Position numbers and translations under genes: made by a program. The notes under the pieces were generated by a model, which worked only from the letters and a program-made list of their open reading frames with translations, searched no databases and was not told where the DNA came from. A stretch of 25,392 nucleotides of DNA from a virus, in IMG/VR virus record IMGVR_UViG_3300025168_000603, positions 1 to 25,392 of that record, one strand, 5' to 3'. Positions 696 to 23,829 of the stretch are shown here, in pieces. Within the stretch, counting starts at the first letter, position 1. Each line of letters starts with the position of its first letter.

Positions 696-3032
696 ATGAG
701 TACATTAAATAGACCAATGTTTATGAGCCGTGGCGGTGGTGCTTTCCCAGATGTATCTGGTGATGGAAAGATTACTCAAAAAGATATTCTTATGGCTCGT
801 GGGGTTATTCCACAAAACAAAAATATGGGTGGAATGATTCGTAAAGATGAGCGAACTATTCGCAATGTAGATGATGAAATATATCGTATTGCTCCTAAAA
901 CATACGGCCGTGGCCGCGAAAGAATGGATGCTAGAGAAGAGTACGCTAGGGATTTAAGAGAGAAAGATTACTTACGCGCTCAAATGAATCGTTTAGCTAA
1001 TGGAGGTCCGCCTCTCCCTGTTCCAATGAACCCTGCCATGATGGCACCCCCTATGATGGCACCAGAGGAGCAAGTTCAAATAACCGAAGATGCCGCCGCC
1101 TTGCAGGGCGAGCAATTAGGTGAGCAATATTTAAACGAAATGATGACCGGCCTAGATACGGCTGGAAGCACGGAAGAAGTGATTGATGCCATTCGTGGCA
1201 ACGATAAAACGTTACAAGAGCGATATGACGAGCTTGCTAATTTTGTAGGGGAGGCCGATTCTTCTGCCACGCCCGAATCTGTCTTGGCCCTTGTGCAACC
1301 GACCATTATGCTTACTGAACAAGGTGCAATGGACTCGGGAATTGGTGAGCTAATGCAAGGTATTGCCGGTGAAGTAGAAATGGAAACAGAGATGGGCGCA
1401 CCTACGCCAATGGGGCAAGGTGTGGGCGAATTGATGGTTAGTCAATCTGTTGAAGAGATGGTTCCGCAAATGAATGCGGGCGGTCCGGTGCAACATTTTA
1501 GCAAAGGGCTTGGTGTATTTTCTGATCCATCAATGGCAAATATACAAAATAAAGCAGGAATGTATGAGCAACTATATGGCCCTGTTTTTGGCTTTAATGA
1601 GGCAGATGAAGACATTGCCAAGTCTCAAGTTGCCCTTGAAATAGCCAATCGTGGATTAGCTTTAGCCAGTGGAGTAGATCCTAACACCGGACAAAAAATG
1701 TCAGGAAGTTTAGTTTCTCAAGTAGCACAATCAGCGCAAGGATTGCCTCAAGCACTAGGTGTAATCGGAGCGCAAAAAAGAGCATCAGAACGACAAATTG
1801 CTCAGGCTGGTTTAGGACAAGCTATTACTGAACAAACTGCAATGGATCAAGCGAGATACGCACAAAGCTTACGTCAGGCTGGGCAAGCACCTAAATTTTA
1901 CACTGTTACAACTGGAACTGGGGAAACTCTTAATTTAGATTTAGGAGGCTCAAATCTTTCAGATCTTACGACTTTTAAAAATTTAAGCGCAGAGGGGGGA
2001 GATGGAGTAAGTACTATGAATGCCGTTAGTTCTGTCACTCAGCCTCCTCAATCAATGTATAAAAACATAATTCTTCCTGACGGTAGAAACCTTGGTACGA
2101 TAGATGTGTCTGTGGGACAAGATCCCGAAGCAGCAATAAATACATTGCTTGAAGCTAACGATATCCCTCTTAATACTGCGTATAATCTTCAGAACCTTGA
2201 TACCACTGGTGAAAACGTACCTCCTGATGAGCTAATAATTAGAGAATCATTAGCAAAACAAATGATTAAAAATTCTGAAGCCGGTGAATCTTCAAGGGAT
2301 TTAAACAGACAATTAGATGTTGCTTATAACATAATAGACGATGGAACGTTTAAACAAGGTTTTGGAGCGGACTTTAGAAAAACATTAGGAGAAATTAATC
2401 AGTTGTTTGGAAGTGTTGTTTCCGAAGAATTGATTGATGGTGTAGATTCCGCCGCCGCTTTTGACGCAGTTAGTACCCAGTTGTTAGCAGATACGATTTC
2501 AGAATTAAAAGGCGTAAGAGGGACTCAATTTATTTTTCAAACTTTGGAAAAAAGTGGACCTAGTTTAAAAAATAGCCCAGAAGGTAATAAACTTATTATT
2601 GATATAAGAAGAGCGGCTAACAATTATATAAACGATAAGTCAAAAATTGCGGATAAATACATTACGGACGTTCAAGGAAGCACCACTAGAACAGTAGACG
2701 GAAAAACTTATTCACAAGCTATACGTGAATTTGAAAACAACAATGAGGCAATACCTGAGTCGTTAAAAGAAAGATTATCTAGTCTTGTTACCGAGGGACA
2801 GGATATTGATATTTTAGGTAAGCTTGAAAATGCTGAAAAAGAGTTTAAGGATCTGAAAGATAAAGGTCAGGAAACTTATGATTCTCTTCAAGATTATATA
2901 AAAAGTCTAGATGTCTTTACGCAAATGCAAATAAAAACTGCTCAAAAGATAAGGGAAGCTAGATTTTCGAGTTCCCAAGAAATACTTGACGGATCTACTT
3001 TGATCGACACTAGGAGCAATGTAGATGGCTGA
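696..3032 (+). CDS. Large virion/internal protein with degenerate EF-hand (dockerin-like) N-terminus
   Basis: A 778-residue protein. Residues 18-36 read as an EF-hand/dockerin-type loop (DVSGDGKITQKD, with acidic or polar residues at loop positions 1, 3, 5 and 12 and Gly at 6), followed by 'ILMARGVIP'. Residues about 97-125 form a Met/Pro-rich linker after a 'NGGPP' motif, and a second 'NAGGPVQ' motif lies near 262. The rest is a long, mostly helical and polar region. No catalytic motif is recognised. Such N-termini and Gly-Gly-Pro linkers are familiar from large structural or ejected proteins of pelagiphage-like viruses (family knowledge, moderate certainty). The stop overlaps the next gene's start by 8 bases, so the two are translationally linked. 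Confidence 0.65.
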   Translation: MSTLNRPMFMSRGGGAFPDVSGDGKITQKDILMARGVIPQNKNMGGMIRKDERTIRNVDDEIYRIAPKTYGRGRERMDAREEYARDLREKDYLRAQMNRLANGGPPLPVPMNPAMMAPPMMAPEEQVQITEDAAALQGEQLGEQYLNEMMTGLDTAGSTEEVIDAIRGNDKTLQERYDELANFVGEADSSATPESVLALVQPTIMLTEQGAMDSGIGELMQGIAGEVEMETEMGAPTPMGQGVGELMVSQSVEEMVPQMNAGGPVQHFSKGLGVFSDPSMANIQNKAGMYEQLYGPVFGFNEADEDIAKSQVALEIANRGLALASGVDPNTGQKMSGSLVSQVAQSAQGLPQALGVIGAQKRASERQIAQAGLGQAITEQTAMDQARYAQSLRQAGQAPKFYTVTTGTGETLNLDLGGSNLSDLTTFKNLSAEGGDGVSTMNAVSSVTQPPQSMYKNIILPDGRNLGTIDVSVGQDPEAAINTLLEANDIPLNTAYNLQNLDTTGENVPPDELIIRESLAKQMIKNSEAGESSRDLNRQLDVAYNIIDDGTFKQGFGADFRKTLGEINQLFGSVVSEELIDGVDSAAAFDAVSTQLLADTISELKGVRGTQFIFQTLEKSGPSLKNSPEGNKLIIDIRRAANNYINDKSKIADKYITDVQGSTTRTVDGKTYSQAIREFENNNEAIPESLKERLSSLVTEGQDIDILGKLENAEKEFKDLKDKGQETYDSLQDYIKSLDVFTQMQIKTAQKIREARFSSSQEILDGSTLIDTRSNVDG

Positions 3033-5820
3033 AAATGATCCTAGAGGTAGTATAAGTTTATTAACACCTATTCTTGATCCAATAGACTCTTCCATTACTC
3101 CAGAAAAAGTTGAATCTGGAGACTATACTGCTCCGCAAATAACCACCTCAGAAGAACGTCTATTACTTCCCCCAAAAACTAAATTTGAGTTCATAGACCC
3201 ACGAGATCCATCAGTCACGAAAATTTTAGAAAGAAACGACTCCGATGTACCTAGAATTGACATAAAAACGGGCTACACTGAGGCGTATGATTCCCTTCCA
3301 ACAGGTGCGTATTTCTACGATATAGACGGCCTTAATTTATATAAAAAAGACGCAGAACCAAAAACTTTAGTTGAAAGAGGTTTTGAACGTCTTATAGGCG
3401 CAGATATTGATGCTCGTGGGTTTGGCATTGAAATTCCTAGAATTGTTTCTACTGTAACAGGTGGTATGGTGGGAAGCAGATTGGGTTTAATGACCCCTAC
3501 CATTGCTAATCCTTTAGGTGTTGCAATTAAAGGAACAGGTGTGTTGGCCTTGGGAGGTTTGGGATCGGCTATTGGCGCAATTATGCCAGAGCAAACTTTA
3601 GAGTGGGGAGAAAAATTTGGTTTAATCCCTGAAGGAACAAGAGATCAATACGGATATACTGATGAAGAATTACGTACTCTTTTTATGGGAGAAGGTCTTT
3701 TAGACATGGCTTTTGGTGCGGGATTCTCGGGTCTAAGGGCAGTGGGAAGACCTGCTGTTAAGTTTGGGGCACGTATATCAGAAGACTCGGCTAAACTGGC
3801 TCAACAAGCAAAAGACCGTGGTATAGCTATGCTTCCCGTTATGCTTGGAGATTCTCCTGTTGCTCGTGGCTATGTTTCTGTCATGGGAAGATTTCCTTTT
3901 TTCGGAACTCCATTTAAAAAAGGAGGAACCGCCGCTGTTGAAAATTATAAAAGTCTTGTAGAAAACATACCGACAAGAATGGGGCCATTAGTTGGTTTAA
4001 ACGAGTTAAGTAATAGAATATTTAAAGAAGCTTCTAATTATGTAAAACAAGTAGAAACTGATTTCTCTAACGCCTATACGAGTATTTATAAACGCGCAGA
4101 AGAAGCTGGCGTAAGAGTCATTCCAGAAAATTCTTTATCAGAAGCCACTAGAATTAAAAATCAAATATTAGCCACTAGGACGCAACTTGCAGATGGTTCC
4201 TTTGGTCAACTTTCTTCAGAAGCAGCAAGCTTTGTTAATTTTTTAGATAAAGAAATTTTAAACCTAAAACAAGGAGCCGTAAGAACAAATGCTGCTCCCA
4301 CTTTTAGAAGAAATCCTCAAACAGGTTTGCAAGAAACGGTATATGAAACAGTTCCCGTTCGTTTAGAAGGCGGAGAAACTCTGGCAGGTGCCCCACAAAC
4401 TATGGAATCTATGGATGGCATAGCCGGTAGACTAGATACCTTTATGTCAAGTACCCGACAACAATTAAATGGTAAACTTCCTGAAAATTTTGGCGAATAT
4501 TACAGCACGTTAGGCAATTCAATTAAGGGAGATGTTGTTGGAAACTTAGTAGAAAATGCTGGAAAGAATGCAGAAACTGGTTTAGACATTTATAAAAGAA
4601 ATCCACAAGGAGCCACTGGTTCTATAGGTTATGAACTACAGTTGTTAGACAAAGATTTTTCCCAAACAATGAATGCTTTGTTTGAAACAAGTGGTGCTAA
4701 AATGTTTGAAGGGGTACGTCGAGGAGGATTAAGAGGTACTACGGCCCCTTCACAAGAAGCCTTGAGAAAGAATGTTGACACTTTTGCACAATCATTATTA
4801 ACAGAGATCCCAAAAAGTCCGGCAAGTATTTTAGAGCTTAGACGAATTGTGGGTCCAGAAACTTTTAACATGATTGGCGCAGAATATTTAAACAAGGCTA
4901 TTTTACAAGCCACTGATTCAAAAACTGGAATTTTAAGAACTGATGTCCTTCGTAAAAAATTAGGATTTGATAATCCTAATGGACCAGAGGCAAAAGGTTT
5001 AGAAGCTTTGTTTTCGGGAATGAGGGCTAGTCCTGATCTTGAAGATGTCAATAAAATATTGTCTATTCCGGAACTAGAAACGATTTTAAATATAGGCGAT
5101 TCAATATCTAAATTAGAGATTCCCGATGTTTCTACGTTTATTGCTAGAAGAGCCGTAATGGGCGGACCCTCTTCTGCGGCAAAATCTTTTACTCCATTTA
5201 ATGTGGCAACAGGAACTGCCGCAGGAGCCGGTGCTACTACTTTGTTTGGAGCAGTACCTTTAATGATTACATTGACGGGAATAGCAGGGGCAAGAGGCAT
5301 TTCTAGTATGCTTTCTAATCCTTCTACTGCATTGCCTTTAAAAAAAGTCTTACAAGAAGAAGCAGAGGGAATTGTTGGTAAACAAAATTTTGCAAGAGTA
5401 GCTAGAGGTGTAATTCGATCATTAGGAGCAACCGGAGCGGCTACCTTAGAAGAAGTTTCCGAAATGTTGGGAGAATTCGACGGAATCTATGATAAGTTAC
5501 TAGAAATAGAAGAAGATCCTTCTTTATTACAAAACACTTCGCCAGCGATTGACGAGATTGAAGAATCTATTGCGACTCCGGTAGCAGTGATAGAACCTCC
5601 CCCTCCTTTTGACGCTATGAGAGACAACGTTCCCCCTCCTCCTATGAACGTAGCGCAGTTGCCGCAACAATCCACTCCTGTAGCGGTCCCACCACCACGG
5701 CCCGCGCCTCAAGGGATCGCCGCCGCTTCCCCAGAAAGCCGTGCCCAGTTTGCGGCATTGTTTCCTAATGACATGGCAAGCGGAGTCATTCGATCCCAAG
5801 GCATTGGTTCTCTCGTTTAA
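3025..5820 (+). CDS. Large internal virion / DNA-ejection-type protein
   Basis: A 931-residue protein whose ATG overlaps the previous stop by 8 bases. It has two Gly/Ala-rich hydrophobic segments (about residues 140-186 and 725-760) that could insert in or cross a membrane, separated by a long helical region. The C-terminus is a Pro-rich tail (about 855-905) ending in a segment containing 'AALFPND'. Two membrane-active segments in a very long protein encoded after other virion genes fit an ejectosome or internal core protein that helps DNA cross the host envelope; that role is inference. The LFPND-like tail recurs, as I recall, in large virion proteins of marine podoviruses and may be a packaging or assembly tag. 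No lytic transglycosylase motif is seen. It ends 15 bases before a convergent gene. Confidence 0.62.
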   Translation: MAENDPRGSISLLTPILDPIDSSITPEKVESGDYTAPQITTSEERLLLPPKTKFEFIDPRDPSVTKILERNDSDVPRIDIKTGYTEAYDSLPTGAYFYDIDGLNLYKKDAEPKTLVERGFERLIGADIDARGFGIEIPRIVSTVTGGMVGSRLGLMTPTIANPLGVAIKGTGVLALGGLGSAIGAIMPEQTLEWGEKFGLIPEGTRDQYGYTDEELRTLFMGEGLLDMAFGAGFSGLRAVGRPAVKFGARISEDSAKLAQQAKDRGIAMLPVMLGDSPVARGYVSVMGRFPFFGTPFKKGGTAAVENYKSLVENIPTRMGPLVGLNELSNRIFKEASNYVKQVETDFSNAYTSIYKRAEEAGVRVIPENSLSEATRIKNQILATRTQLADGSFGQLSSEAASFVNFLDKEILNLKQGAVRTNAAPTFRRNPQTGLQETVYETVPVRLEGGETLAGAPQTMESMDGIAGRLDTFMSSTRQQLNGKLPENFGEYYSTLGNSIKGDVVGNLVENAGKNAETGLDIYKRNPQGATGSIGYELQLLDKDFSQTMNALFETSGAKMFEGVRRGGLRGTTAPSQEALRKNVDTFAQSLLTEIPKSPASILELRRIVGPETFNMIGAEYLNKAILQATDSKTGILRTDVLRKKLGFDNPNGPEAKGLEALFSGMRASPDLEDVNKILSIPELETILNIGDSISKLEIPDVSTFIARRAVMGGPSSAAKSFTPFNVATGTAAGAGATTLFGAVPLMITLTGIAGARGISSMLSNPSTALPLKKVLQEEAEGIVGKQNFARVARGVIRSLGATGAATLEEVSEMLGEFDGIYDKLLEIEEDPSLLQNTSPAIDEIEESIATPVAVIEPPPPFDAMRDNVPPPPMNVAQLPQQSTPVAVPPPRPAPQGIAAASPESRAQFAALFPNDMASGVIRSQGIGSLV

Positions 5821-5835: not shown

Positions 5836-6315
5836 TCACTTAACTTTCTTAGGCACATATTCTCCAAGTTGGGGATTAACTACGTTAGAGCGAAGCATCC
5901 TATATATTCTTTTAAACCCCAACCCGTGAGGTTTTCGATATATGTTTTTTAACCATCGGCATTTAGGCCCAAACTTATATTGAACGTGATGCGCTACTTC
6001 ATGCGACACACTTAGCCACAAGTCCTCTTCGAGGCTCTTGGTATAGCGTCCGCCGATCACGGGACAGTTGTCATAAGCAGGGTATTCTTTGTGCCAGCCT
6101 TCCTTTCCGTGCTGCCAATAGTTAAGGTTGATCTGAATAACTCTTTTGCCGCCGTAAGTCGCTCCGCTGCACCAATCCTTATTTACTACTTTGGTGCATT
6201 GTATGGCCTCTTCAACATGATGCTTTTTAATATCCAGTTCGTAGTCTTTCTTTTTTAAATGATTCATACACTTCCTGACCATTCGTTCAATCAACTTCTC
6301 TTCGGCAGTCTTCAT
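5836..6315 (-). CDS. SprT-like zinc metalloprotease-fold protein
   Basis: A 159-residue protein. The zinc-metallopeptidase signature HEVAH is at residues 105-109, with a further candidate ligand in HGLGFK starting at His130; HExxH followed about 20 residues later by HGxxFK/R is the SprT/Spartan-like arrangement. SprT-family proteins are linked to DNA-protein crosslink proteolysis and DNA repair; the role in phage is unknown. A strong ribosome binding site (AGGAGGTG) lies 4 bases before the ATG, inside the end of the upstream gene, and start and stop overlap as ATGA, so the two genes are coupled. The C-terminus is basic. There is no C-terminal Cys-rich ribbon here, unlike the second SprT-like protein of this window (22781-23365). 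Confidence 0.75.
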   Translation of the reverse strand: MKTAEEKLIERMVRKCMNHLKKKDYELDIKKHHVEEAIQCTKVVNKDWCSGATYGGKRVIQINLNYWQHGKEGWHKEYPAYDNCPVIGGRYTKSLEEDLWLSVSHEVAHHVQYKFGPKCRWLKNIYRKPHGLGFKRIYRMLRSNVVNPQLGEYVPKKVK

Positions 6316-8327: not shown

Positions 8328-8906
8328 ATGAGCGAAATTGATGACTTTCTTACAAGCACTGTGTCCCAAAGTAAATCAAGTCTTGAAAACGTAGATGACA
8401 ATGGCGTAAGAACGATTGCAGAACTTGCAACCTCTGTAAAAAAAACTACTGCACAAATTCTTAATCTTGAGAATCAACTAAAAAAAGAAAAGGAAAACCT
8501 ACGTCAATTAACTGACGAAGATCTTCCGGACATGCTTTTTAGTTTAGGTGTTCAGTCGTTTAAACTTCACGACGGAAGCGAGGTCACTGTCAAACAAACC
8601 TACGGCGCACACATTAATCTTGAAAATAAAGATGCGGCGCATCATTGGCTACGGGAGAACGGGTACGGTGATCTTATTAAGAATCACATCACTTGCGAGT
8701 TTGGTAGAGGTGAAGACGAAGCAGCTTCTAAATTTATTGAAGTAGCAAACACATTAGCCAAAATTGCCCCAAAACAGAAAACGGACATCCATTCTTCGAC
8801 ACTTAAAGCCTTTGTAAAAGAAAGCTTACAAGCGGGAGTGGACATACCGACTGATCTTTTTGGTGTGTTTACAGGGAATCGAGCAACCATTAAACAAGGA
8901 AAATGA
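8328..8906 (+). CDS. Conserved phage protein of unknown function upstream of the ssDNA-binding protein
   Basis: A 192-residue protein. The second of two nearby ATGs (8328) is chosen because GAGG (8317-8320) lies 7 bases before it but only 1 base before the first (8322). Residues about 30-70 form a helical, charged region (coiled-coil-like, 'NQLKKEKENLRQL'), followed by a more globular part with FKLHDGSEVTVKQ and a C-terminal 'HSSTLKAFVKE' segment. It resembles, from memory, small phage proteins located just before ssDNA-binding or recombination genes; a replication accessory role is inference. The stop is separated from the next ATG by a single base. Confidence 0.75.
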   Translation: MSEIDDFLTSTVSQSKSSLENVDDNGVRTIAELATSVKKTTAQILNLENQLKKEKENLRQLTDEDLPDMLFSLGVQSFKLHDGSEVTVKQTYGAHINLENKDAAHHWLRENGYGDLIKNHITCEFGRGEDEAASKFIEVANTLAKIAPKQKTDIHSSTLKAFVKESLQAGVDIPTDLFGVFTGNRATIKQGK

Positions 8907-9702: not shown

Positions 9703-11232
9703 ATGGAAGATGCACAAAAATTTTCCCATATCTTTCGGGGTTTGGAGGCGGCTTACGGTACTTATCGAATTGATAAGAAGCAATCTAATGGAAAACACGT
9801 TGGAAAAGCTTCATTAATTAGAGAAGTCCGGACAACCGAAACTTGGAAAAAACATCTCGATGGCACTGGCGATGCCATTGGGATTGTTCCGATCAATGAA
9901 GACAACAAGTGTGTCTTCGGTGCGATTGATGTAGATACCTATCCGTTAGATCTTACAACTCTTGTGACTAAAATACGAAAGCTCAACTTACCCTTAGTGG
10001 TATGTCGTAGCAAGTCAGGCGGGGCACATTGTTATCTTTTTACGTCCGATTGGATTGACGCTAAAAATATGCAAGGTGTTTTGAATATGGTTGCGGCGGC
10101 ATTGGGCTACAACGGGTCTGAAATTTTCCCAAAGCAAATTTCTCTGCAACTTGATCGCGGAGATGTGGGAAATTTTATAAATCTTCCAATGTACGATGCT
10201 GAAAAGGGGTTGCGTTACGCAATTCACGATGACGGTTCTGCCGCAACACTTCAAGAGTTCTTTGAAATGTACGATCAATTTGTACAGACACCAGAGCAAG
10301 TCTCTGCTTTACAAATTGAGGAAAAACCCGATTCCCCTGTTCCTGATGGCCCTCCATGTTTACAAACACTTTGCGCTCAAAGAATTAGCGAGGGTGGAAG
10401 AAACAACGGGTTATTTAACGTAGGGGTCTATCTTCGCAAAGCTTTTCCTGATAATTGGAAAAGTGAAATATTAGCGTACAACATGAATTATTTTGATCCT
10501 CCCTTGCCGCTTGATGAAGTTAATTTAGTGGCTAAACAGTTGGAAAAAAAAGATTATGCCTATCGGTGCAAAGACGCTCCGATAAATGCTTACTGTAATG
10601 CGGAAGTGTGTAAAACAAGGAAATTTGGCATAGGGGCCGCATTAAGTGGGGCAGTTATGGCTAATTTAAGAAAATACAACTCTACGCCTCCTGTTTGGTT
10701 TATCGACATTAATTCATTGCCCGTGGAACTCGAAACAGATGCTTTAATGTCGCAACCTACGTTTCAAAGATCATGTATTGAACAAATTAATTTTATGCCA
10801 AAAACGTTGGCTAGACTTTCGTGGGAAGGAAAGATTAACGGTTTACTTGAAGAGATGTTGACTTCCGATGGAAGTATCATTGAGGTTTCTCAAGACGCTT
10901 CGGTAACTGGGCAGTTTTACGATCATTTGGAGGATTTTTGTTGCGGCAAGCAACAAGCAACGGAACGGGAAGAAATATTGTTACGAAGACCATTTACAAG
11001 TGAAGAAGAAAATAAAACTTATTTTCGTTTAAAAGATTTTGACAGTCATTTAAAGAAGCATAAATTTTTTGAATTTAAGTCGCATAAAATTGCTCAACGG
11101 TTGCGAGACATAAACGGGGCAGCCACTTCTATAAAAATAAAAGGAAAATCCGTAAGAGTTTGGTGGGTACCAAGTTATACCTCGCCTCCAGAAATTTCTT
11201 CACCCAAACTTTCCGAAGAAAAACCATTTTGA
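9703..11232 (+). CDS. Archaeo-eukaryotic-type (TOTE-like) primase
   Basis: A 509-residue protein. Residues 8-165 carry the AEP primase signatures seen in TOTE-type primase domains: the metal-binding pair in FGAIDVD (Asp76, Asp78), a basic/His motif SKSGGAH (His109), IFPKQ (141-145) and GNFINLP (156-162). The N-terminal FRGLEAAYGTY also fits this family. A middle region (about 215-310) resembles a primase C-terminal helical domain and ends in a Cys-containing stretch (Cys289, Cys298, Cys303), a possible metal site. The last 200 residues are of unknown fold. It would synthesise primers for the adjacent family A polymerase. No DnaG/TOPRIM or DnaB-type helicase domain is present. The start is 6 bases after the previous stop. 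Confidence 0.85.
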   Translation: MEDAQKFSHIFRGLEAAYGTYRIDKKQSNGKHVGKASLIREVRTTETWKKHLDGTGDAIGIVPINEDNKCVFGAIDVDTYPLDLTTLVTKIRKLNLPLVVCRSKSGGAHCYLFTSDWIDAKNMQGVLNMVAAALGYNGSEIFPKQISLQLDRGDVGNFINLPMYDAEKGLRYAIHDDGSAATLQEFFEMYDQFVQTPEQVSALQIEEKPDSPVPDGPPCLQTLCAQRISEGGRNNGLFNVGVYLRKAFPDNWKSEILAYNMNYFDPPLPLDEVNLVAKQLEKKDYAYRCKDAPINAYCNAEVCKTRKFGIGAALSGAVMANLRKYNSTPPVWFIDINSLPVELETDALMSQPTFQRSCIEQINFMPKTLARLSWEGKINGLLEEMLTSDGSIIEVSQDASVTGQFYDHLEDFCCGKQQATEREEILLRRPFTSEEENKTYFRLKDFDSHLKKHKFFEFKSHKIAQRLRDINGAATSIKIKGKSVRVWWVPSYTSPPEISSPKLSEEKPF

Positions 11233-11972
11233 AGGCTCATCAAAGACTTGTTCGAGAAAAGGTGGCCGCTCAAAATGATGACCTTTTTGGTAATTGGTGG
11301 TCGGACATTGATACCAATATAAAAAAAGCAGAAGTAAAAGAGGTCACTCATCAACAAGCTAAAAAGATTATTGAAAAATACGAGTGGTTAGGTTGTCTTG
11401 CTGCCATTAATTGGCATTACTATGGCATTTTCTTTGACGGAATTTGTGGAGGTGTAGTGGTATATGGCGTCGAGTACATTGAAAATTTAGGCCGATGGGA
11501 CAAATACGACTATACAGGGAAAATTATTCTTTTAAATAGGGGTGCTTGTGTTCATTGGGCACATCCGCACAGCGCAAGCAAATTAATCTCTGCTTCTATA
11601 AAATTGTTACCAGAAAAATATAAAGTTGTTACTTGTACGGTTGATGACCTTGCAGGGGAAATCGGCACGATATATCAGGCTTGTAACTTTACATATGTTG
11701 GCTCGATGCGAGAAGCTAATCCTAATATTAATAGTCGGGATGGTGATCGGGATGGTTGGCTAGTTAATGGCAAGATGTATGGCTCACGGGCCATGCGGCA
11801 AAAATTTGGAACTACTGAGTTGTCTAAAATTAAGAAAGTCTTTCCTAATGTTAAAAAAGTAAAACAAAACAGTAAAGGGAGATATTTCTTTTTTCGAGGC
11901 ACTCGGTCTGAGAAAAAATATTATTTGAGTAAAATAAATCATTTGATAAAGGAGTATCCAAAACGTGTTTAG
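11229..11972 (+). CDS. Mom-like GNAT DNA-modification protein
   Basis: About 247 residues if translation begins at the TTG at 11229, which overlaps the primase stop as TTGA; no ATG occurs early in the frame, and GTG at 11262 is an alternative (236 residues). The region LNRGACVHWAHPHSASKLI (102-120) and the later GEIGTIYQACNFTYVG (143-158) match the pattern of phage Mom-family acyltransferase-fold proteins. Mu Mom converts adenine in DNA to N6-carbamoylmethyladenine and so blocks many restriction enzymes. A basic C-terminus (about 200-247) would suit DNA contact. Placement between primase and helicase genes fits modification of newly made phage DNA. The family call is from motif memory; the modified base and target sequence cannot be read from sequence. 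Confidence 0.65.
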   Translation: MKAHQRLVREKVAAQNDDLFGNWWSDIDTNIKKAEVKEVTHQQAKKIIEKYEWLGCLAAINWHYYGIFFDGICGGVVVYGVEYIENLGRWDKYDYTGKIILLNRGACVHWAHPHSASKLISASIKLLPEKYKVVTCTVDDLAGEIGTIYQACNFTYVGSMREANPNINSRDGDRDGWLVNGKMYGSRAMRQKFGTTELSKIKKVFPNVKKVKQNSKGRYFFFRGTRSEKKYYLSKINHLIKEYPKRV

Positions 11973-13682: not shown

Positions 13683-15580
13683 CAAATTCTATGCAGTTCC
13701 CTATGTTTAAACCGGCTACCGAATGGACACCTCCTTCGGAACTACCTGATTTAACCGCAGCAAAAGAGATAGCGATTGATCTTGAGACGCGAGATCCAGA
13801 TTTAAAAGAGCGTGGTGCCGGATGGCCCACTAAAAATGGAGAGATTATTGGGTACGCGATAGCAACAAGCGATTGGTCTGGGTATTTGCCCATAGCTCAT
13901 GCGGGAGGAGGGAATTTAGACAAGCGAATAGTTAATAATTGGATGAAAGATTTGCTTGCCTGTCCTGCCGACAAAATTGCTCATAACGCAAGTTATGATC
14001 TTGGTTGGCTTCGCTCGGCGGGCTTTGAGGTTAACGGAAGAATTATTGACACGATGCTAACGGGAAGTTTGCTCGATGAAAATAGGTTTTCGTACAGTTT
14101 AAACGCACTAGGATACGACTATCTTGGACAAGTTAAGTCCGAGAAGGGGTTGGTAGAAGCGAGTACCGCTTTTGGAATTGATAGTAAAAGCCAAATGCAC
14201 TTAATGCCCGCGATTTATGTAGGCGAATATGCAACCAAAGATGCGACCCTATGCTTAGACCTGTGGCATCATTTTAAAGGTCTATTAAGTACCGAAGACC
14301 TTTGGGAAGTCTGGGATATGGAGATGGCACTATTGCCTAATCTTGTTGAAATGACTTTGCGCGGTATTCGCGTAGATGTAGATCAGGCCGAAAAAACTAA
14401 ACAAGCGATTATAAAACGCGAAAAAACAATTAATAAGCGCATTAAAGAAATTGCAGGTAGTTCTGTGGAAATTTGGGCGGCGGACTCTATTGCAAAAGCC
14501 TTTGATAAAGCCGGATTAGAATATCCAAAAACAGCGACTGGTCGGCCTTCCTTTACTAAAAATTTTTTAGCGGATCATCCTACCGAACTGGCTAAATCTA
14601 TTGTTATGTCTCGTAATTTAAATAAAATGCAGACCACTTTTATTGATTCTATATTGAAATATGTCAAAAATGGCAGGGTTCACGGGCATATCAACCAACT
14701 GCGCGGGCCTGACGGAGGGACTGTCTCTGGCAGAATTTCAATGAATAATCCTTCTTTGCAGACCATACCTTCTCGTGATCCCGAACTTGGCCCAATGATG
14801 CGGCGGTTGTTCTTACCCGAGGAGTTTAAACAGTGGGGGGCTATTGATTTTAGTCAGCAGGAACCAAGAGTGCTTGTCCATTACGCCGACGCCTACGGAA
14901 AATCTCGCAATACCCCGCTCCAAGGGGTGGAGGAATTTGTTGACGGCTACAACAACGACCCCAATATGGATTTTCATTCGCTCGTGGCGGAGATGACGCA
15001 ATTGCCCCGTAAGACAGCAAAAGTGTGTAATTTGGCTTTAATGTACGGAATGGGTGTCAATAAATTGTCTGATCAGTTAGATATTTCTGTTGACGAGGCA
15101 AAAAACCTAATGAAGCAGTACAACGAGCGCGTCCCTTTTGTAAAGCAGTTGATGCAAGGGGTCACCAAGCATTTAGAAAGCAATCGCTCCAATGGCTCGA
15201 TACGCAGCCTAAAGGGGCGTAAGTGCCGCTTTGACAAGTGGGAACCCGCAAGCTTTGGCACCCACAAGGCTATGTCTCGTGATGAAGCTATCGCGGCTCA
15301 CGGGGAAACTACGCGATTAAAACGAAGTGGGGTTTACAAAAGTTTAAACAGGCTCATTCAGTCTTCAGCGGCGGATATGACTAAACAGGCAATGGTCGAT
15401 TGTTGCAAAGCCGGTTATTTGCCTATGCTGCAAGTCCATGACGAACTGGCTTTTTCGGTGAAGGATGCCGAAGAAGCTAAAGCTATCCGGAAAATTATGG
15501 AGGATGCTTTGCCCTTGTGTGTCCCCAATCAATGCGACATTGATTTAGGGCCTAATTGGGGCGATGCGGTGGAAATTTAA
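13679..15580 (+). CDS. polA: Family A DNA polymerase with 3'-5' exonuclease domain (Leu at position 762 equivalent)
   Basis: A 633-residue polymerase. Exonuclease motifs: DLET (Asp34, Glu36), HNASYD (Asn103, Asp107) and YATKD (Tyr184, Asp188), so proofreading is intact. Polymerase motif A is DFSQQEPR (Asp390, Glu395, Arg397), motif B runs from Arg444 through Lys448 to Tyr456, and motif C is HDE (587-589). The residue matching E. coli Pol I Phe762 is Leu452 (CNLALMYG). Leu at this position is established in a large group of marine viral polymerases and affects fidelity and speed. There is no 5'-3' exonuclease domain, as in most phage family A enzymes. It ends the replication operon; the next gene starts about 40 bases later. 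Confidence 0.95.
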   Translation: MTNSMQFPMFKPATEWTPPSELPDLTAAKEIAIDLETRDPDLKERGAGWPTKNGEIIGYAIATSDWSGYLPIAHAGGGNLDKRIVNNWMKDLLACPADKIAHNASYDLGWLRSAGFEVNGRIIDTMLTGSLLDENRFSYSLNALGYDYLGQVKSEKGLVEASTAFGIDSKSQMHLMPAIYVGEYATKDATLCLDLWHHFKGLLSTEDLWEVWDMEMALLPNLVEMTLRGIRVDVDQAEKTKQAIIKREKTINKRIKEIAGSSVEIWAADSIAKAFDKAGLEYPKTATGRPSFTKNFLADHPTELAKSIVMSRNLNKMQTTFIDSILKYVKNGRVHGHINQLRGPDGGTVSGRISMNNPSLQTIPSRDPELGPMMRRLFLPEEFKQWGAIDFSQQEPRVLVHYADAYGKSRNTPLQGVEEFVDGYNNDPNMDFHSLVAEMTQLPRKTAKVCNLALMYGMGVNKLSDQLDISVDEAKNLMKQYNERVPFVKQLMQGVTKHLESNRSNGSIRSLKGRKCRFDKWEPASFGTHKAMSRDEAIAAHGETTRLKRSGVYKSLNRLIQSSAADMTKQAMVDCCKAGYLPMLQVHDELAFSVKDAEEAKAIRKIMEDALPLCVPNQCDIDLGPNWGDAVEI

Positions 15581-15622
15581 TAAAAAGTCTTATATACTCT
15601 TATTTTTTGGGGGATAAATTTG

Positions 15623-15841
15623 ATGGATACAACAAAATGGCGTCAGGTTCTTGTGCCAATAGACGTTTACCATCGGCTTGTCACGATGGCCCATATTGAG
15701 GAACGAACAATAAGCGGGCAAGTGCGCGTCATTTTTAACCAGTGGGTAGACACTAATTTAAGTAAGGCGGATCGAAAATTTTTAGAAGAAGAAACCGAAA
15801 TTATTGTTGAAAAAGAAAAAAAACGTAGATCAGAATTGTGA
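15623..15841 (+). CDS. Ribbon-helix-helix-like small protein
   Basis: A 72-residue protein. The ATG at 15623 is preferred over the adjacent TTG; GGGGA lies about 9 bases upstream. The pattern 'WRQVLVPIDVYHRLVTMAH' followed by 'RTISGQVRVIFNQWV' fits a ribbon-helix-helix DNA-binding fold (short strand, then two helices), followed by a charged helical tail. Such proteins usually dimerise and bind palindromic operators. It could regulate the small-gene cassette that follows. A possible -10 box TATACT (15593-15598) precedes it without a clear -35. Confidence 0.65.
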   Translation: MDTTKWRQVLVPIDVYHRLVTMAHIEERTISGQVRVIFNQWVDTNLSKADRKFLEEETEIIVEKEKKRRSEL

Positions 15842-16177: not shown

Positions 16178-16489
16178 ATGACAACAACCTATTCCCTCCC
16201 TGATTTTGAACCTTCTGTTTCTACGGTTATCGAAATTACTTCTTCTCAAGTTTACGGGACTCTCATTGAACTTGACAGAGAATTAATTGGCGGCGAAGAC
16301 TACCTTGGTCTGGCTAAGTGGTGGTCGTCCGGTAGAGACGATTATTACCACATTCTTAAAAATGTTAGTTCGTTTAAACGCAAGAGAATTCACGACGTAC
16401 TGGTCCATAATAAAATACCCTTGGCGCAACCTGATAGAGATTTTGGTGAGCAAGAACTTGCTTCCGAAATTTATCGAAGATACTTATGA
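16178..16489 (+). CDS. Hypothetical phage protein
   Basis: A 103-residue protein with a strong ribosome binding site (AGAGG about 10 bases upstream) in the shared TTCATTCA leader. It is mixed acidic and aromatic (contains 'YLGLAKWWSSGRDDYYHILK' and 'FKRKRIHDVLVHNKIPLA'), likely a compact helical fold. No family is recognised. Its stop overlaps the start of a tiny membrane peptide (ATGA). Confidence 0.65.
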   Translation: MTTTYSLPDFEPSVSTVIEITSSQVYGTLIELDRELIGGEDYLGLAKWWSSGRDDYYHILKNVSSFKRKRIHDVLVHNKIPLAQPDRDFGEQELASEIYRRYL

Positions 16490-18146: not shown

Positions 18147-18322
18147 TGAAAATAAAGCTAGAAATTAAAGTTGCTAACAACGGGCTTATGCACCTTTATC
18201 CAATAGATGAAAAAGGCCGTACTTTAACCAAAATTACTAAAACAAAGACCCTGACCCCCGAAACAATTAAGCTGTTTAAACAACTTGGATTTACTTTTTT
18301 AATTGGAGAAACAATATTATGA
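18146..18322 (+). CDS. Small hypothetical protein
   Basis: A 58-residue protein. The ATG at 18146 overlaps the previous stop as TAATG and has GGAG just upstream; an ATG at 18134 would add four residues. Basic, beta-rich start (MKIKLEIKVANNG). It may be a small DNA- or protein-binding domain, but no family is recognised. Confidence 0.6.
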   Translation: MKIKLEIKVANNGLMHLYPIDEKGRTLTKITKTKTLTPETIKLFKQLGFTFLIGETIL

Positions 18323-18558
18323 ATAATGACAGAGATCCGGTAGTTCTCGATGAAATAAAGCACGATTTACAGCAAAACTATTCAACACAAAGCATAGAAA
18401 TTGATCCTGACGCGCAGTACGAAGAAAAACGTGATAAAGAACTTGCAGATGACAGAAAAGCTGTATGTGGCATTATGGCAGAATTGGGGCAACGCCCGAT
18501 CAATGGTATCATCAAAGACATTATGAAATTAATTGACAACGCGAGGAAATTTGGATGA
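18319..18558 (+). CDS. Small acidic hypothetical protein
   Basis: A 79-residue, Asp/Glu-rich protein starting in an ATGA overlap with the previous gene; GGAG lies upstream. It is acidic throughout its first half, with a helical C-terminus (INGIIKDIMKLIDNARKFG). Its stop overlaps the lipase start (ATGA), so the two are coupled. Confidence 0.6.
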   Translation: MNNDRDPVVLDEIKHDLQQNYSTQSIEIDPDAQYEEKRDKELADDRKAVCGIMAELGQRPINGIIKDIMKLIDNARKFG

Positions 18559-19271
18559 AAAATCTAAAAAACGCGGCACTTTTATGCAAACAAGCTTACA
18601 AGTCTGGCATTCCTAAGACGTTAAAAATTGAAAATAAAAAAACTTCGATGGTCGCGTTTTTAAAACGTGAAAAAAATGCTAACTGGCTTGTCTTTCGGGG
18701 AACCGATAGCTTAAAAGATTGGGCTTACAATGCCAATTTTTTGCCCGTAAGGGTGCAAGGGTCTTGGATTCATTGCGGTTTTTGGCTTGCTCACCGTAGT
18801 ATATGGAAAGAAATACGCAAAGAATTAGACCCGCAAAAAAAATTAATTGTTACAGGGCATTCTTTGGGCGGCGCGTTGGCAGAGATTAGTATTTTATACC
18901 TTATGAGAAAAGGATTTAAAAATGTGGATCTCATCACTTTTGGCAAACCAAACGTTTTTGCTAAATGGCAAAGGGGAAAACAAGCACGTTTAAACGGTGA
19001 AGGGTTCAAGGTGCAACTTTCAGTTGTTAACGGGTCGGATGTGGTGGCTCGTATTCCTCGTATAGGCTATCGTGCCGCACTTAATCAAACGCAATTATGG
19101 TTTGCAGAAAATGAGGATTTTGTGGATCCTACGCCGGAGATGAAAAAAGACCAGTGGGAAATGTTTTCATCCGTCAGCAGTCACGACATGAGTAAATATT
19201 GCGAAAGAGTAGATGATTTTTTAGAAAGTGGATTTTTAGTCGCAACGCTAACCTCTAGTTTGCGTGAATGA
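18555..19271 (+). CDS. Class 3 lipase-like alpha/beta hydrolase
   Basis: A 238-residue protein with the lipase class 3 pattern: FRGTDSLKDW (47-56, oxyanion-hole region), the nucleophile elbow GHSLGG (Ser103), FGKPNV after the next strand, Asp162 in NGSDVVARIP and His210 in SSHD, giving a complete Ser-Asp-His triad. No signal peptide or membrane segment is evident, so it would act in the cytoplasm or be released at lysis. Lipase 3 enzymes hydrolyse acylglycerols or phospholipids; in phages they are uncommon. Possible roles are membrane weakening at lysis or lipid remodelling during infection (inference). It is the last gene before a hairpin and a strong terminator and is coupled to the upstream small gene by ATGA. 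Confidence 0.85.
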   Translation: MKNLKNAALLCKQAYKSGIPKTLKIENKKTSMVAFLKREKNANWLVFRGTDSLKDWAYNANFLPVRVQGSWIHCGFWLAHRSIWKEIRKELDPQKKLIVTGHSLGGALAEISILYLMRKGFKNVDLITFGKPNVFAKWQRGKQARLNGEGFKVQLSVVNGSDVVARIPRIGYRAALNQTQLWFAENEDFVDPTPEMKKDQWEMFSSVSSHDMSKYCERVDDFLESGFLVATLTSSLRE

Positions 19272-19439: not shown

Positions 19440-19493
19440 TAGAAAATGCGTTAAGGGGTCATTCCTTTTTATTTTTTTATTTTTTTATTTCTT

Positions 19494-19527: not shown

Positions 19528-19535
19528 CTTTTTTC

Positions 19536-20132: not shown

Positions 20133-20481
20133 ATTTACCCGTTTGGAGTCGTGGGCCTCGTTAGGGGTTCCGGATGTCCTCGTATGTGATGATGAAGGTT
20201 CGTTTCACCTTGTAGAACTAAAATCAATAACCGGCTATGCCTCTACCCTGTCGGCGCATCAGATTAGTTTTTTTTCAAGTCACGCCGAAGCTAATGCGTG
20301 GATATGGATATATAAAACAGGACGTTTAAACGCTCCGCAAATTTTTATTTACCACGCAAGCCAAATAATGGAACTAGTAAAAAAAGGCGTAAAGGCGGAA
20401 CCGTTTGGAGTTTGGAAGGAAACGGGGATTGACTGGGGGGAAGTTTGGGATAAAATTAAAGCCCGCCGAAACGGGCTATAA
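20011..20481 (+). CDS. PD-(D/E)XK nuclease (resolvase-like)
   Basis: A 156-residue protein from the ATG at 20011 with GAGGG 6 bases upstream. Motif: SEANFWKSIK, then a basic RLESW segment, GVPDVLVC (Pro-Asp) and FHLVELK (Glu-X-Lys), the PD-(D/E)XK core of VRR-NUC/Holliday-junction-resolvase-like phage endonucleases. It would cut branched DNA before packaging or act in recombination. The conserved 'SEANFWKS' start lies inside the 122-base out-of-frame overlap with terS, so the overlap is real and not a mis-called start. It ends at a hairpin terminator shared with the convergent operon. Confidence 0.8.
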   Translation: MKFEELLSTGIPKKSTIRKKSEANFWKSIKSQSKKQLPRYRFTRLESWASLGVPDVLVCDDEGSFHLVELKSITGYASTLSAHQISFFSSHAEANAWIWIYKTGRLNAPQIFIYHASQIMELVKKGVKAEPFGVWKETGIDWGEVWDKIKARRNGL

Positions 20482-20495
20482 TTTATATTTTTTTA
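20460..20495 (+). terminator. Rho-independent terminator at the nuclease stop
   Basis: AGCCCG (20460-20465), loop CCGAAA, CGGGCT (20472-20477), followed by an AT/T-rich tract ending in a run of T. It overlaps the nuclease stop codon and the end of the convergent ribbon-helix-helix gene, so it may work in both directions. Confidence 0.7.
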
Positions 20496-20629
20496 AGTTT
20501 GCGGGCATGTTCCAACGCTAACGTTTTTAAAATTTGAGAAATACTAGTACGTTGTTCCTCTGCAATTTCTTGCAAAGCTTTTTTCAGTTGAGAATCTATT
20601 CTAATTCCGATTTGCTTGTCATTGTTCAC
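20483..20629 (-). CDS. Ribbon-helix-helix (CopG/Arc-like) DNA-binding protein
   Basis: A 48-residue protein starting with GTG at 20629, in a GTGA overlap with the upstream gene; AAGGA lies about 9 bases before. The sequence MNNDKQIGIRIDSQLKKALQ followed by EIAEEQRTSISQILKTLALE is a clear ribbon-helix-helix: strand 'QIGIRI', helix, turn with 'RTSISQ', helix. Such dimers bind palindromic operators. It is a candidate regulator of this minus-strand block and possibly of the GTTTAAAC palindromes. Last gene of the operon. Confidence 0.75.
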   Translation of the reverse strand: MNNDKQIGIRIDSQLKKALQEIAEEQRTSISQILKTLALEHARKLKKI

Positions 20630-20790: not shown

Positions 20791-20800
20791 TATAAAGCCC

Positions 20801-20977: not shown

Positions 20978-21007
20978 AATAATTCCCCTTATAAACGTTT
21001 AAACAAG

Positions 21008-21175: not shown

Positions 21176-21178
21176 AAT

Positions 21179-21436: not shown

Positions 21437-21460
21437 TTTGACGTCCTCTATTGAATGAAT

Positions 21461-21476
21461 GCCCCCGTAAGGGGGC
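21461..21476 (-). terminator. Intercistronic GC hairpin
   Basis: GCCCCC/GGGGGC with a 4-base loop, 6 bp and fully GC-paired. It lies right after the stop of the 21483-22061 gene and right before the TTCATTCA leader of the next. No T run follows, so it may be an RNA-stability or processing hairpin rather than a full terminator. Confidence 0.45.
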
Positions 21477-21482
21477 CATAAA

Positions 21483-22061
21483 TTACCCCGCTACAATTCG
21501 ATAGTATTCTTCCATTTTGCTTTCAGATTCTGGGGTATAACTATAATCAGAAATAACTTCTTCGGTGACTTCGGCGTTACCCCATAAAAACAAAAAAGAA
21601 CCTAAGCGATCAATTTGCAAAGTGTTTTCATCAGATGCGCCCATTTCGTCGAGGATTTCGTTTTTATTGGTACAACCGTGTTTTAAAATGTCTTCTTCGT
21701 CAAACACATTAATTTTATGACCGTCTGATAAAATTTTAATTATCATTCTTTCGATAGCGTCGGCGGCTTCAATGGGTATAGCTTTATGAAGCTCAGTTCT
21801 GTTTTTAAGATAATATTGAGCATCTGGCGCGGTAGTCACCACGACGTTTTTATTGGGTAATACCCCTACGCCTGTTATTTTAAGCTCTGGAAAATGCTTA
21901 TTAATAAGTGCTTGCGCGGCGTCTCTATCGGGATATGGGCTTGTGTGATCGTAAGGAACTTTGAGAGAAACTCTATTTTCCCCGTCCCCCGCCGTGGCTT
22001 TAAGGTAAGAGTTTGTTTTGTCAGTCATTGAAAAATATTTAACTTCGATTGCATAAGCCAT
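21483..22061 (-). CDS. Hypothetical phage protein
   Basis: A 192-residue protein with AAAGAGG about 8 bases before the ATG, in the TTCATTCA leader. The first 70 residues look beta-rich (IEVKYFSMTDKTNSYLKATA), followed by a helical acidic part. No family is recognised. Probably driven by its own promoter in the gap upstream (22094-22122). Confidence 0.7.
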   Translation of the reverse strand: MAYAIEVKYFSMTDKTNSYLKATAGDGENRVSLKVPYDHTSPYPDRDAAQALINKHFPELKITGVGVLPNKNVVVTTAPDAQYYLKNRTELHKAIPIEAADAIERMIIKILSDGHKINVFDEEDILKHGCTNKNEILDEMGASDENTLQIDRLGSFLFLWGNAEVTEEVISDYSYTPESESKMEEYYRIVAG

Positions 22062-22093
22062 GATAATTACCTCTTTTTATTGAATGAATGTAC

Positions 22094-22122
22094 ATAGTAT
22101 ATTAAATGCAAAACAATGTAAA
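22094..22122 (-). promoter_or_regulatory. Candidate promoter for the 22061 gene
   Basis: Minus strand TTTACA (22117-22122, 5 of 6), 17 bases, then TACTAT (22094-22099); TATACT at 22096-22101 is an alternative -10. The transcript would begin near the TTCATTCA motif at 22081-22088. Confidence 0.4.
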
Positions 22123-22128
22123 ACTTTA

Positions 22129-22332
22129 TTACTCGCTAAATTCAAATATATTTTCATTAATCCAATCAGTTGCACACTCAACGGCGGCACTTTCCGATTC
22201 TATCCTGTAACAAGTGAAGCAATATTCGTCTATCCATTCCCCACTAATAAATATTTGAATATTAAAAGTCGCGCTTTCGTTCCACTTGACGCGGATATTT
22301 TCCCCTTGTAGTTCTAAGTTAAAAAATTTCAT
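22129..22332 (-). CDS. Small hypothetical protein
   Basis: A 67-residue protein with AAAAAAGAGGTA directly before the ATG region, the same ribosome-binding block as its neighbours. Acidic, with an aromatic, beta-rich centre (FNIQIFISGEWIDEYCF) and helical C-terminus. No family is recognised. Confidence 0.65.
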   Translation of the reverse strand: MKFFNLELQGENIRVKWNESATFNIQIFISGEWIDEYCFTCYRIESESAAVECATDWINENIFEFSE

Positions 22333-22349
22333 TTCGTACCTCTTTTTTA

Positions 22350-22383
22350 ATATGCCCCCTTGCGGGGGCGTTTAAACGTTTAT
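22350..22383. repeat. 34-bp gene-end element, copy 1 (hairpin plus GTTTAAAC palindrome)
   Basis: An ATAT flank, the hairpin GCCCCC-TTGC-GGGGGC (22354-22369), then the palindromic CGTTTAAACG and TTTAT. It is identical over all 34 bases to 22748-22781. It covers the stop codon of the minus-strand gene at 22380 and separates it from the next gene. Confidence 0.85.
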
Positions 22384-22721
22384 ATTAAATCTTCGGAAGC
22401 TTGCATAAAGTCATATGCACATTGTTGCTCTTCTTCTAAAGTTGTTTGTCTAACCCTTACAACTCTACCAATTGCGGACAAAGCCGAATAAGTGGCGCAA
22501 TTTTGCCCCCTGTGGTTGTCGGAAAGCCAGAACCACGCCCCGATAAAAAAGTCACACATGGTAAAATCTTCGTCTATTGCTTCATCCATCCAAAGAAAAT
22601 CGTCGTTTGTATCCTCCATGATAGAATTCGACAAACCTTGTATTTGATCCATCGCCAGCCAGAATTCCCCGTTGTTTAAAGAAGATAAAAGGCTTTCGTA
22701 TTTTTGCTGAATAGGTGACAT
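22380..22721 (-). CDS. Acidic hypothetical protein
   Basis: A 113-residue acidic protein with GGAG about 10 bases before the ATG. Contains an aromatic, acidic middle (DDFLWMDEAIDEDFTMCDFF) and a helical C-terminus. Highly acidic small phage proteins can act as DNA mimics, but no specific family is recognised. The stop lies inside the 34-bp repeat. Confidence 0.65.
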   Translation of the reverse strand: MSPIQQKYESLLSSLNNGEFWLAMDQIQGLSNSIMEDTNDDFLWMDEAIDEDFTMCDFFIGAWFWLSDNHRGQNCATYSALSAIGRVVRVRQTTLEEEQQCAYDFMQASEDLI

Positions 22722-22747
22722 AATTTTTACACTCCGTATTTTTTTAG

Positions 22748-22781
22748 ATATGCCCCCTTGCGGGGGCGTTTAAACGTTTAT
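22748..22781. repeat. 34-bp gene-end element, copy 2
   Basis: Exact duplicate of 22350-22383, again ending in the stop codon of the upstream gene (here the SprT-like protease) and preceding the next gene's leader. Two exact copies 398 bases apart, each between genes, suggest a functional transcript element or a spreading intergenic repeat. Confidence 0.85.
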
Positions 22782-23365
22782 TAAAGCGTTGTGTCTAGAT
22801 CGCCTTCGCACACTTGGCATATGTGCGAGTTCATAGCTTCAACATTCTTTTTGCTGGTTCTAAAAGACCACGTACAAACCGTGCATGATACTTTTATCAT
22901 TCTCGTGGATTGTTTTTTCCGGCCGGATAAGTCGAGCTTTGCATGCGGGTATTCGCCTATTCTTTTTACAATTTTCTTTAGTGTTACTAGCAATTCTTCG
23001 CCCGCAATTGTTGCGGTCATTTTGCCGGTAAGTCCGATAGATAAAGCCAACTTCCGGAAGGCGGGGCCGTGGCCTGATTCGTTCCCATCTATTGCGTGGC
23101 AAAATTCATGGCAAAGAACGTCTAAGACTCTCTCACTTTCACATAGTTCCGGCGATAAAAAGATTTCTATTTTTTGATCCGCCGATGATGTGGCGGGAAA
23201 GCACACTCCTAATGTTTGATTTTTTGCGCCCGCTTTACGATTTGATAAAGCCCCGCAACCGATACGTATATTTTCGGGTATTGTTAAACCGGCGGGTCCG
23301 AAGACTTCTTCTTGTAACATAGGCAAAGCCGCCAGTATCCAATCTTCTCTGTTTAATATAGCCAT
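22781..23365 (-). CDS. SprT-like zinc metalloprotease with C-terminal zinc ribbon
   Basis: A 194-residue protein. The ATG at 23365 is chosen because it follows the shared leader block (AAAAAGAG). HEFCH (86-90) and GHG (98-100, His99) form the SprT-type zinc site; the C-terminus has CTVC (161-164) and HICQVC (181-186), a zinc ribbon typical of SprT-like proteins. SprT/Spartan enzymes are linked to DNA-protein crosslink repair. It is the first gene of the minus-strand block, placed beside the promoter at 23397-23425. The protein is distinct in sequence from the one at 5836-6315. Confidence 0.82.
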   Translation of the reverse strand: MAILNREDWILAALPMLQEEVFGPAGLTIPENIRIGCGALSNRKAGAKNQTLGVCFPATSSADQKIEIFLSPELCESERVLDVLCHEFCHAIDGNESGHGPAFRKLALSIGLTGKMTATIAGEELLVTLKKIVKRIGEYPHAKLDLSGRKKQSTRMIKVSCTVCTWSFRTSKKNVEAMNSHICQVCEGDLDTTL

Positions 23366-23396
23366 GTGTAGTACTCTTTTTAATGAATGAGATATA

Positions 23397-23425
23397 ACTT
23401 TACTACCTTGTTTAAACAATGTCAA
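23397..23425 (-). promoter_or_regulatory. Promoter of the minus-strand block, with GTTTAAAC palindrome in the spacer
   Basis: Minus strand TTGACA (23420-23425, perfect), a 17-base spacer, then TAAAGT (23397-23402, 4 of 6). The spacer contains the palindrome TTGTTTAAACAA (23408-23419), ideally placed for a repressor. Transcription would start just before the TTCATTA leader of the SprT-like gene. Confidence 0.55.
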
Positions 23426-23548
23426 ACAATGTGCAACAAATAAATTAAATAAATTAATCGACTATATAGGGTCGAGGTAAACTCGACTTGTTTCTTAATA
23501 CTTATATGTATGTAACAAGTACCCCACCCCCACCCCCCTTGCTTTTTT

Positions 23549-23625
23549 CCGTGGACCGTGGACCGTGAACCGTGGTTCACTAAGCAAGTGACACTAAGCA
23601 AGGCCCGTGGCCCGTGAACCGTTGC
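23549..23625 (+). repeat. Heptad-phased repeat array (CCGTG units)
   Basis: Four consecutive 7-mers CCGTGGA, CCGTGGA, CCGTGAA, CCGTGGT (23549-23576); then two copies of a 14-base unit containing ACTAAGCAAG (23577-23604); then CCGTGGC, CCGTGAA, CCGTTGC (23605-23625). All eleven heptads are in one phase. The inverted repeat GTGAACC-GT-GGTTCAC (23565-23580) is embedded. Confidence 0.85.
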
Positions 23626-23829
23626 GCGTCTCGCATGGGTCACGGCGCGTTTAAACGTCCCTAGTATCTTTTTAGCGGGACTCCGGCAATAGAGGCTAAA
23701 TCTAATGAAATCAATGACTTAGCGCACGATCCACGAATCAGGGGGTTTCCCGTCACCGGAGGGGGCTTGGGCCATGTTTCTCTCAAACAAATCTTGTTAA
23801 AATGTTATTAAAATCTTTTTCTTTTACTA

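Follow-up and report, generated by a model that had tools for sequence, protein, structure and literature searches.

The window analysed here, the whole stretch of 25,392 nt of viral DNA, carries a gene for an SprT-like metalloprotease and, scattered along its length, 16 exact copies of the palindromic word GTTTAAAC (Table 1). A recount returned the same number and the same start coordinates as the original prediction, which had also claimed a skew to the right half; 13 of the 16 sites indeed lie at or beyond 13.7 kb. Eleven copies fall within coding sequences, all in the FK or LN register as had been claimed, and five are intergenic.

Table 1. Copies of the palindrome, the SprT-like gene and other features of the window. 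L173 and L005 are related viruses described in the text.
Feature	Position	Strand	Basis or remark
GTTTAAAC site	2348..2355	.	coding, FK
GTTTAAAC site	3995..4002	.	coding, LN
Very weak second SprT-like protein (HEVAHH, without zinc ribbon)	5836..6315	-	Pfam E 0.02, below cutoff
GTTTAAAC site	8558..8565	.	coding, FK; kept in sister L173
Mom-like DNA modification gene	11223..11972		PF25680, E 7e-22; PHROG 1384
GTTTAAAC site	13705..13712	.	DNA polymerase gene start; GTTTAAGC in L173, GTTCAAGC in L005
GTTTAAAC site	14097..14104	.	within polymerase; kept in L173, GCTTGAAC in L005
GTTTAAAC site	14824..14831	.	within polymerase; missing from L173
GTTTAAAC site	15342..15349	.	within polymerase; kept in L173
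RHH1 gene	15620..15841		ribbon-helix-helix
GTTTAAAC site	16372..16379	.	coding
GTTTAAAC site	18274..18281	.	coding
Class 3 lipase gene	18555..19271		PF01764, E 3e-20; also in L173
GTTTAAAC site	18988..18995	.	coding, lipase gene; missing from L173
GTTTAAAC site	20324..20331	.	coding; kept in L173
RHH2 gene	20483..20629	-	ribbon-helix-helix
GTTTAAAC site	20997..21004	.	intergenic; 20 bp upstream of minus-strand operon with RHH2 gene last
GTTTAAAC site	22370..22377	.	adjoins GCCCCC/GGGGGC hairpin; 38 bp upstream of next minus-strand gene
GTTTAAAC site	22768..22775	.	adjoins second GCCCCC/GGGGGC hairpin copy; immediately 3' of SprT gene
SprT-like metalloprotease gene (194 aa, PF10263), proposed site reader	22781..23365	-	Pfam and association
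C-terminal KKQSTR arm and zinc ribbon (residues 150-183)	22817..22918	-	conserved in motif-bearing homologues
HExxH catalytic motif (HEFCH, residues 86-90)	23096..23110	-	alignments
-10 box TAAAGT, predicted promoter of SprT gene	23397..23402	-	sequence
GTTTAAAC site	23410..23417	.	inside 17-bp spacer of SprT gene's predicted sigma70 promoter
-35 box TTGACA, predicted promoter of SprT gene	23420..23425	-	sequence
GTTTAAAC site	23649..23656	.	large intergenic region ahead of terminase gene

The over-representation claimed for this word is fully borne out, as it ranks first among all 8-mers of the window under Markov models of orders 3 to 5. Its expected count is 0.7 from base composition, 1.66 at order 3 (Poisson tail 3e-11), 1.95 at order 4 and 3.5 at order 5, while 1000 within-gene synonymous shuffles gave 1.7 coding copies on average and never more than 5, against the 11 present. 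These two tests rule out chance or codon bias as the source of the excess. Within the window, C is preferred before the word and G after it (CGTTTAAAC, 17 against 0.74 expected), and 8-mer counts revealed no enrichment of its one-mismatch forms. An assembly artefact is also ruled out, since the excess is found both in an 8.6-kb contig 99.9% identical to the window, which has the same 8 sites (L085), and in a divergent sister virus.

This sister, L173 (71-82% DNA identity), holds 12 copies in 14.4 kb against 0.66 expected, and the word is again the top 8-mer; its contig stops before the SprT locus. Only four positions are common to the two viruses (8558, 14097, 15342 and 20324), the rest having been gained or lost separately. 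Such maintenance of density while positions turn over argues for a role across the genome and against mere inheritance of individual sites. L005, with 85% polymerase identity, has zero copies, and L088, which is syntenic with the window and 80% identical to it in terminase DNA, is without both the word and SprT. The remaining loci fetched by polymerase or terminase have counts near expectation, and the cultured relatives DSL-LC04 and HTVC023P hold 0 and 2 copies, respectively, in 50 kb. Enrichment in relatives, on which the original prediction had made itself depend, therefore holds for the nearest sister but not for slightly more distant viruses.

Other repeats were observed among relatives of the window. 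The palindromes CCTCGAGG (7 in 7.5 kb, 0.26 expected) and GGGGCCCC (5, about 0.15 expected) are enriched at loci L160; L121, L122 and L124. L088, and also L005, has the repeated modules ACAATTCATTCAAT, AGCCGAAACGCC and GAACCTGCCATC, with 7-8 copies of each in L088, probably intergenic and lying in a small-gene array where the window has its GCCCCC/GGGGGC hairpins.

Distribution of the word and of SprT-like genes

Searching viral contigs for closely spaced pairs of the extended word returned 119 stretches, of which about 25-30 were very dense contigs mostly unrelated to the window; one of them, for which 0.9 copies of GTTTAAAC would be expected, has 21 within 7.4 kb. When the proteins of 29 dense loci were compared all against all, one family, an SprT-like metalloprotease, appeared in 18 of the loci, the window included. 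The SprT profile matches 27 viral loci, 22 of them dense and none among the window's motif-poor relatives. Since the word served as bait for the dense loci, that set alone is possibly biased, and the later sets were chosen without it.

Homologues of the window's SprT protein occur in 163 phage records and 70 plasmid records. Using an alignment of the catalytic domain, we selected 79 further viral contigs solely by similarity to this domain. They contain 580 copies of GTTTAAAC against 40 expected, with at least one copy in 74 contigs and p<1e-3 individually for GTTTAAAC or GTGTAAAC in 64, whereas the reversed control word occurs 29 times against 21, all of these being counts from contigs related to one another and hence not independent. 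Among phages picked by SprT alone, GTTTAAAC occurs 34 times in Methylophilales phage Venkman (2.2 expected), 10 times in Dinoroseobacter phage R5C (0.32), 9 times in Pseudanabaena phage Pan1 (0.12) and 7 times in Burkholderia phage Mica (0.12); plasmids picked in the same way include a Magnetospira plasmid with 18 copies (0.45) and pUT1 with 5 (0.04). Enrichment at small counts (3 to 6 copies) was seen in sphingomonad plasmids, Persinger and Bas97. The actinobacteriophages Zeta1847, VroomVroom, Amyev and Marky have 0-2 copies of GTTTAAAC, and their most enriched 8-mer is the one-base variant GTGTAAAC (observed/expected 22/0.57, 18/0.72, 23/0.66 and 35/1.25, respectively). The control word CAAATTTG was not enriched in any SprT-picked cultured phage or plasmid record examined.

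Across 18 motif-bearing phage and plasmid genomes, SprT reaches 16-17 of the others from most queries and 9 from the most divergent one, and no family other than SprT, or its antisense reading frames, is common to more than five others. Three motif-dense contigs of at least 40 kb whose fetched part was without SprT all carry the gene elsewhere, and short dense fragments often lack it, as would be expected of fragments. The window's motif-poor relatives, 13 on contigs 27 to 60 kb long, showed no SprT. We consider it almost certain that GTTTAAAC and the SprT gene are linked across unrelated phages and plasmids.

Several unusual arrangements were also recorded. Tandem arrays of GTTTAAAC occur at L310:6546-6760 (about 13 copies, period near 16.5 bp, close to an SprT gene) and at L337:6526-6787 (10 copies, period 29 bp), and a bacterial-bin contig (SZUA-567) encodes an SprT homologue with two copies directly upstream (L218:3194-3808, minus strand). 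The genome of Arthrobacter phage VroomVroom (L359) contains 6 copies of GTTTCACGTGAAAC, a parS-like palindrome, far above expectation.

The SprT-like protein and its C-terminal tail

The protein encoded in the window belongs to PF10263 (37.8 bits against a gathering cutoff of 25.6, E 1.8e-9), and its alignments show the metal-binding HEFCH together with a downstream H99. Phage proteins of PF10263 or PHROG 6361 are annotated as 'SprT-like protease' or 'transcription elongation protein SprT', although PHROG 6361 itself carries no functional assignment. The tail is marked by residues K150, K151, Q152, R155, C161, C164, R169 and C183. Motif-bearing homologues retain KKQ[ST]TR, the ribbon cysteines and R169, and in most SprT proteins of the GTGTAAAC type the second cysteine is replaced; comparison of homologues yielded no convincing residues to account for the GTTT/GTGT switch between GTTTAAAC and GTGTAAAC. 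In the structure predicted for this protein by AlphaFold2 (mean pLDDT 85.5), the tail is a beta hairpin following a low-confidence basic arm. No confident template emerged from a PDB sequence search or from Foldseek with the model, and the best weak structure match, CapP (E 0.06, TM-score 0.30), carries no evidential weight.

Natural variants separate the tail from catalysis. The homologues of Microbacterium phage Eden, Pseudomonas phage PSA20 and Bordetella phage CN1, whose genomes have neither word, keep the catalytic HExxH and have lost KKQxTR and R169, amounting to about two independent cases as PSA20 and CN1 are closely related. At L311:5502-6110 (minus strand), HExxH has become AMxxH in an SprT protein with an intact KKQGTR tail, accompanied by 16 sites in 10 kb; this protein may be a naturally occurring DNA-binding form without catalytic activity. 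Taken together, tail loss in the three phages and HE loss in L311 indicate that the association between word and SprT follows the tail and not catalysis.

Candidate readers and functions of the site

When the flanks of 749 sites were pooled, position -1 favoured Y and positions -3 and -5 both favoured A. This extends the site to some 18-20 bp, AnAnYGTTTAAACRnTnT, with a flank symmetry that is assumed because both sides were pooled. This length is typical of a dimeric DNA-binding protein and exceeds the usual methylase site. The broad idea of a protein-binding site, raised in the original prediction, is supported, but most of the specific readers and roles proposed with it are not. A packaging or replication signal, also proposed there, would have to accommodate sites that turn over in position and are present on plasmids too. 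The window's two ribbon-helix-helix (RHH) proteins had been suggested to read the palindrome, and in their favour the word precedes the RHH2 operon in both motif-rich viruses, and the DNA-contacting beta strand of RHH2 (QIGIR/HIGIR in motif-rich, SITVR/SITIR in motif-free relatives) tracks its presence. However, RHH1 is conserved throughout the clade, including many viruses without GTTTAAAC, RHH2 turned up in no more than four viruses and the 18 motif-bearing genomes have no RHH family in common, so that an RHH operator is scarcely credible.

The site of a modification system, also proposed, found no support either. No methyltransferase family is common to the 18 genomes. Where the window has its Mom-like gene, the interval in L173 and L005 shrinks to about 200 bp (an alignment gap in L173), which points to recent gain or loss of this gene. 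Since the motif-rich L173 is without Mom at the locus, Mom modification is unsupported. Host mimicry likewise gained no support from a search for paired CGTTTAAACG in 84,980 species genomes, which revealed no dominating taxon. With an exact 8-bp palindrome scattered through coding DNA, the phage could be mirroring its host, either a host-wide iterated palindrome like HIP1, for which a tie to orphan methyltransferases is described (PMC4390886), or a restriction-modification site of the PmeI type. With no species group dominating the scan, no methylase shared and a site extending well past eight bases, we regard this explanation as very improbable.

The reading we favour, with a probability of roughly 0.6, is that the SprT-like protein encoded by the virus itself has GTTTAAAC as its cognate DNA site. 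That this protein is the reader of the palindrome seems probable from the comparisons above; that it serves as a site-guided protease is a closer call, falling slightly short of an even chance. The SprT-like protein would bind the palindrome as a dimer through its C-terminal KKQ[ST]TR/zinc-ribbon element, and binding at dispersed sites would load it at many places of its own genome. There, the metalloprotease domain could cleave or clear DNA-bound proteins, whether host silencers, roadblocks or a regulator. Retention of HExxH in all 79 SprT-chosen contigs makes a protease brought to many points of the genome the most likely role, although L311, a single sequence, lost the catalytic motif and kept its sites, which speaks against proteolysis being essential. 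In Venkman and in the window the sites are biased to non-structural regions, a bias that uniform patrol of the genome would not predict.

Control of the SprT gene's own promoter may be added by site 23410, located between the TTGACA and TAAAGT boxes that precede the SprT start. Judging from this position, autoregulation is likely in the window, and a site lies near or upstream of the start of SprT itself in 16 of 59 contigs, where site density would give 6.9. Genome-wide, 43 of 791 sites fall in sigma70 promoter spacers against 35.6 in the control. This lack of enrichment rules out promoter-spacer operators as a general explanation and means that autoregulation cannot be the main reason for the sites. 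The operator proposed originally is thus retained for site 23410 but not for the sites overall, and the many intragenic sites, together with the missing spacer enrichment, make a simple operator role insufficient.

Alternatively, the SprT-like protein could be purely a DNA-binding regulator with dispersed, stoperator-like operators, its protease fold being secondary and its bound sites repressing promoters or stopping RNA polymerase inside genes. Placement lends this some weight: of 111 sites in annotated genomes, 48 reach into intergenic DNA, which makes up about 7% of the sequence, most intergenic sites of VroomVroom precede gene starts by 16-37 bp and 10 of 11 share an orientation, and actinobacteriophages show orientation biases of 15:3, 14:0 and 16:6. 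The spacer position of site 23410 and the loss of HE in L311 point the same way. Nevertheless, an intergenic preference would arise from coding constraint alone, 8 of 10 sites in R5C are intragenic, most sites in R5C and Pan1 being intragenic and widely spaced, and neither the constancy of HExxH nor the missing promoter-spacer enrichment agrees with a pure regulator, which we judge rather unlikely. It is also conceivable that another factor, perhaps a host nucleoid, recombination or replication protein, reads GTTTAAAC, and that SprT is its partner or antagonist, for instance the protease that removes it, since a DNA-dependent protease could co-evolve with its DNA-bound substrate. Yet the correlation tracks the C-terminal ribbon and not the catalytic motif, the word is nearly constant across hosts spanning Methylophilales, Dinoroseobacter and Sphingobium, and sites for a hostile protein should be lost by phages rather than gained; these points make another factor decidedly unlikely.

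Relation to known systems

Tentatively, the favoured reading may extend to a widespread class of phages and plasmids in which a sequence-guided SprT protease, its ribbon tail reading GTTTAAAC or GTGTAAAC, degrades DNA-bound host proteins solely on the DNA of the element itself. If true, such elements would possess a previously undescribed kind of self-marking system, one that counters silencing or defence by proteolysis, and the protease family may be steered by DNA sequence. Records of cultured phages with SprT-like genes number well above a hundred, and plasmid records with them run to dozens; most of these genes gain a testable DNA target, and the link with SprT explains the conspicuous repeated word in these genomes. 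Natural variants that have lost the tail or catalysis are at hand for comparison.

In the open-licence papers searched, we found no SprT-like protein linked to a DNA word and no report of such a link for SprT in phages. To our knowledge, no SprT protein has been coupled to a sequence-specific DNA word. The family (PF10263 / PHROG 6361), with eukaryotic SPRTN and bacterial SprT as relatives, shares HExxH with a downstream His and a C-terminal zinc ribbon; what sets the phage and plasmid genes apart is their association with an iterated DNA word. Two papers describe SPRTN as a DNA-dependent DNA-protein crosslink protease (PMC5127644, PMC5128726), and such DNA dependence among relatives fits the idea of a DNA-guided protease for phage SprT.

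As working analogies, the closest appear to be the stoperators of cluster A mycobacteriophages (PMC9283540) and the Kor operators of IncP plasmids. Stoperators likewise give a phage protein numerous sites of its own across its own genome, but they are asymmetric and are read by a monomeric two-domain immunity repressor (PMC9283540). The system described here has a palindromic site, asymmetric and partly oriented only in the actinobacteriophage variant, occurs in both phages and plasmids and has a metalloprotease partner gene, the sole family shared by motif-bearing genomes being SprT-like. KorA and KorB are plasmid-encoded global regulators of the helix-turn-helix and ParB-like families that read dispersed palindromic operators of IncP plasmids. 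These reader families differ from SprT, and the KorA site GTTTAGCTAAAC has just the half-site GTTTA in common with our word. HIP1 of cyanobacteria, GCGATCGC, resembles GTTTAAAC in being an exact 8-bp palindrome dense in coding and non-coding DNA, but it is chromosomal and linked to methyltransferases (PMC4390886), whereas GTTTAAAC is carried by mobile elements and linked to SprT.
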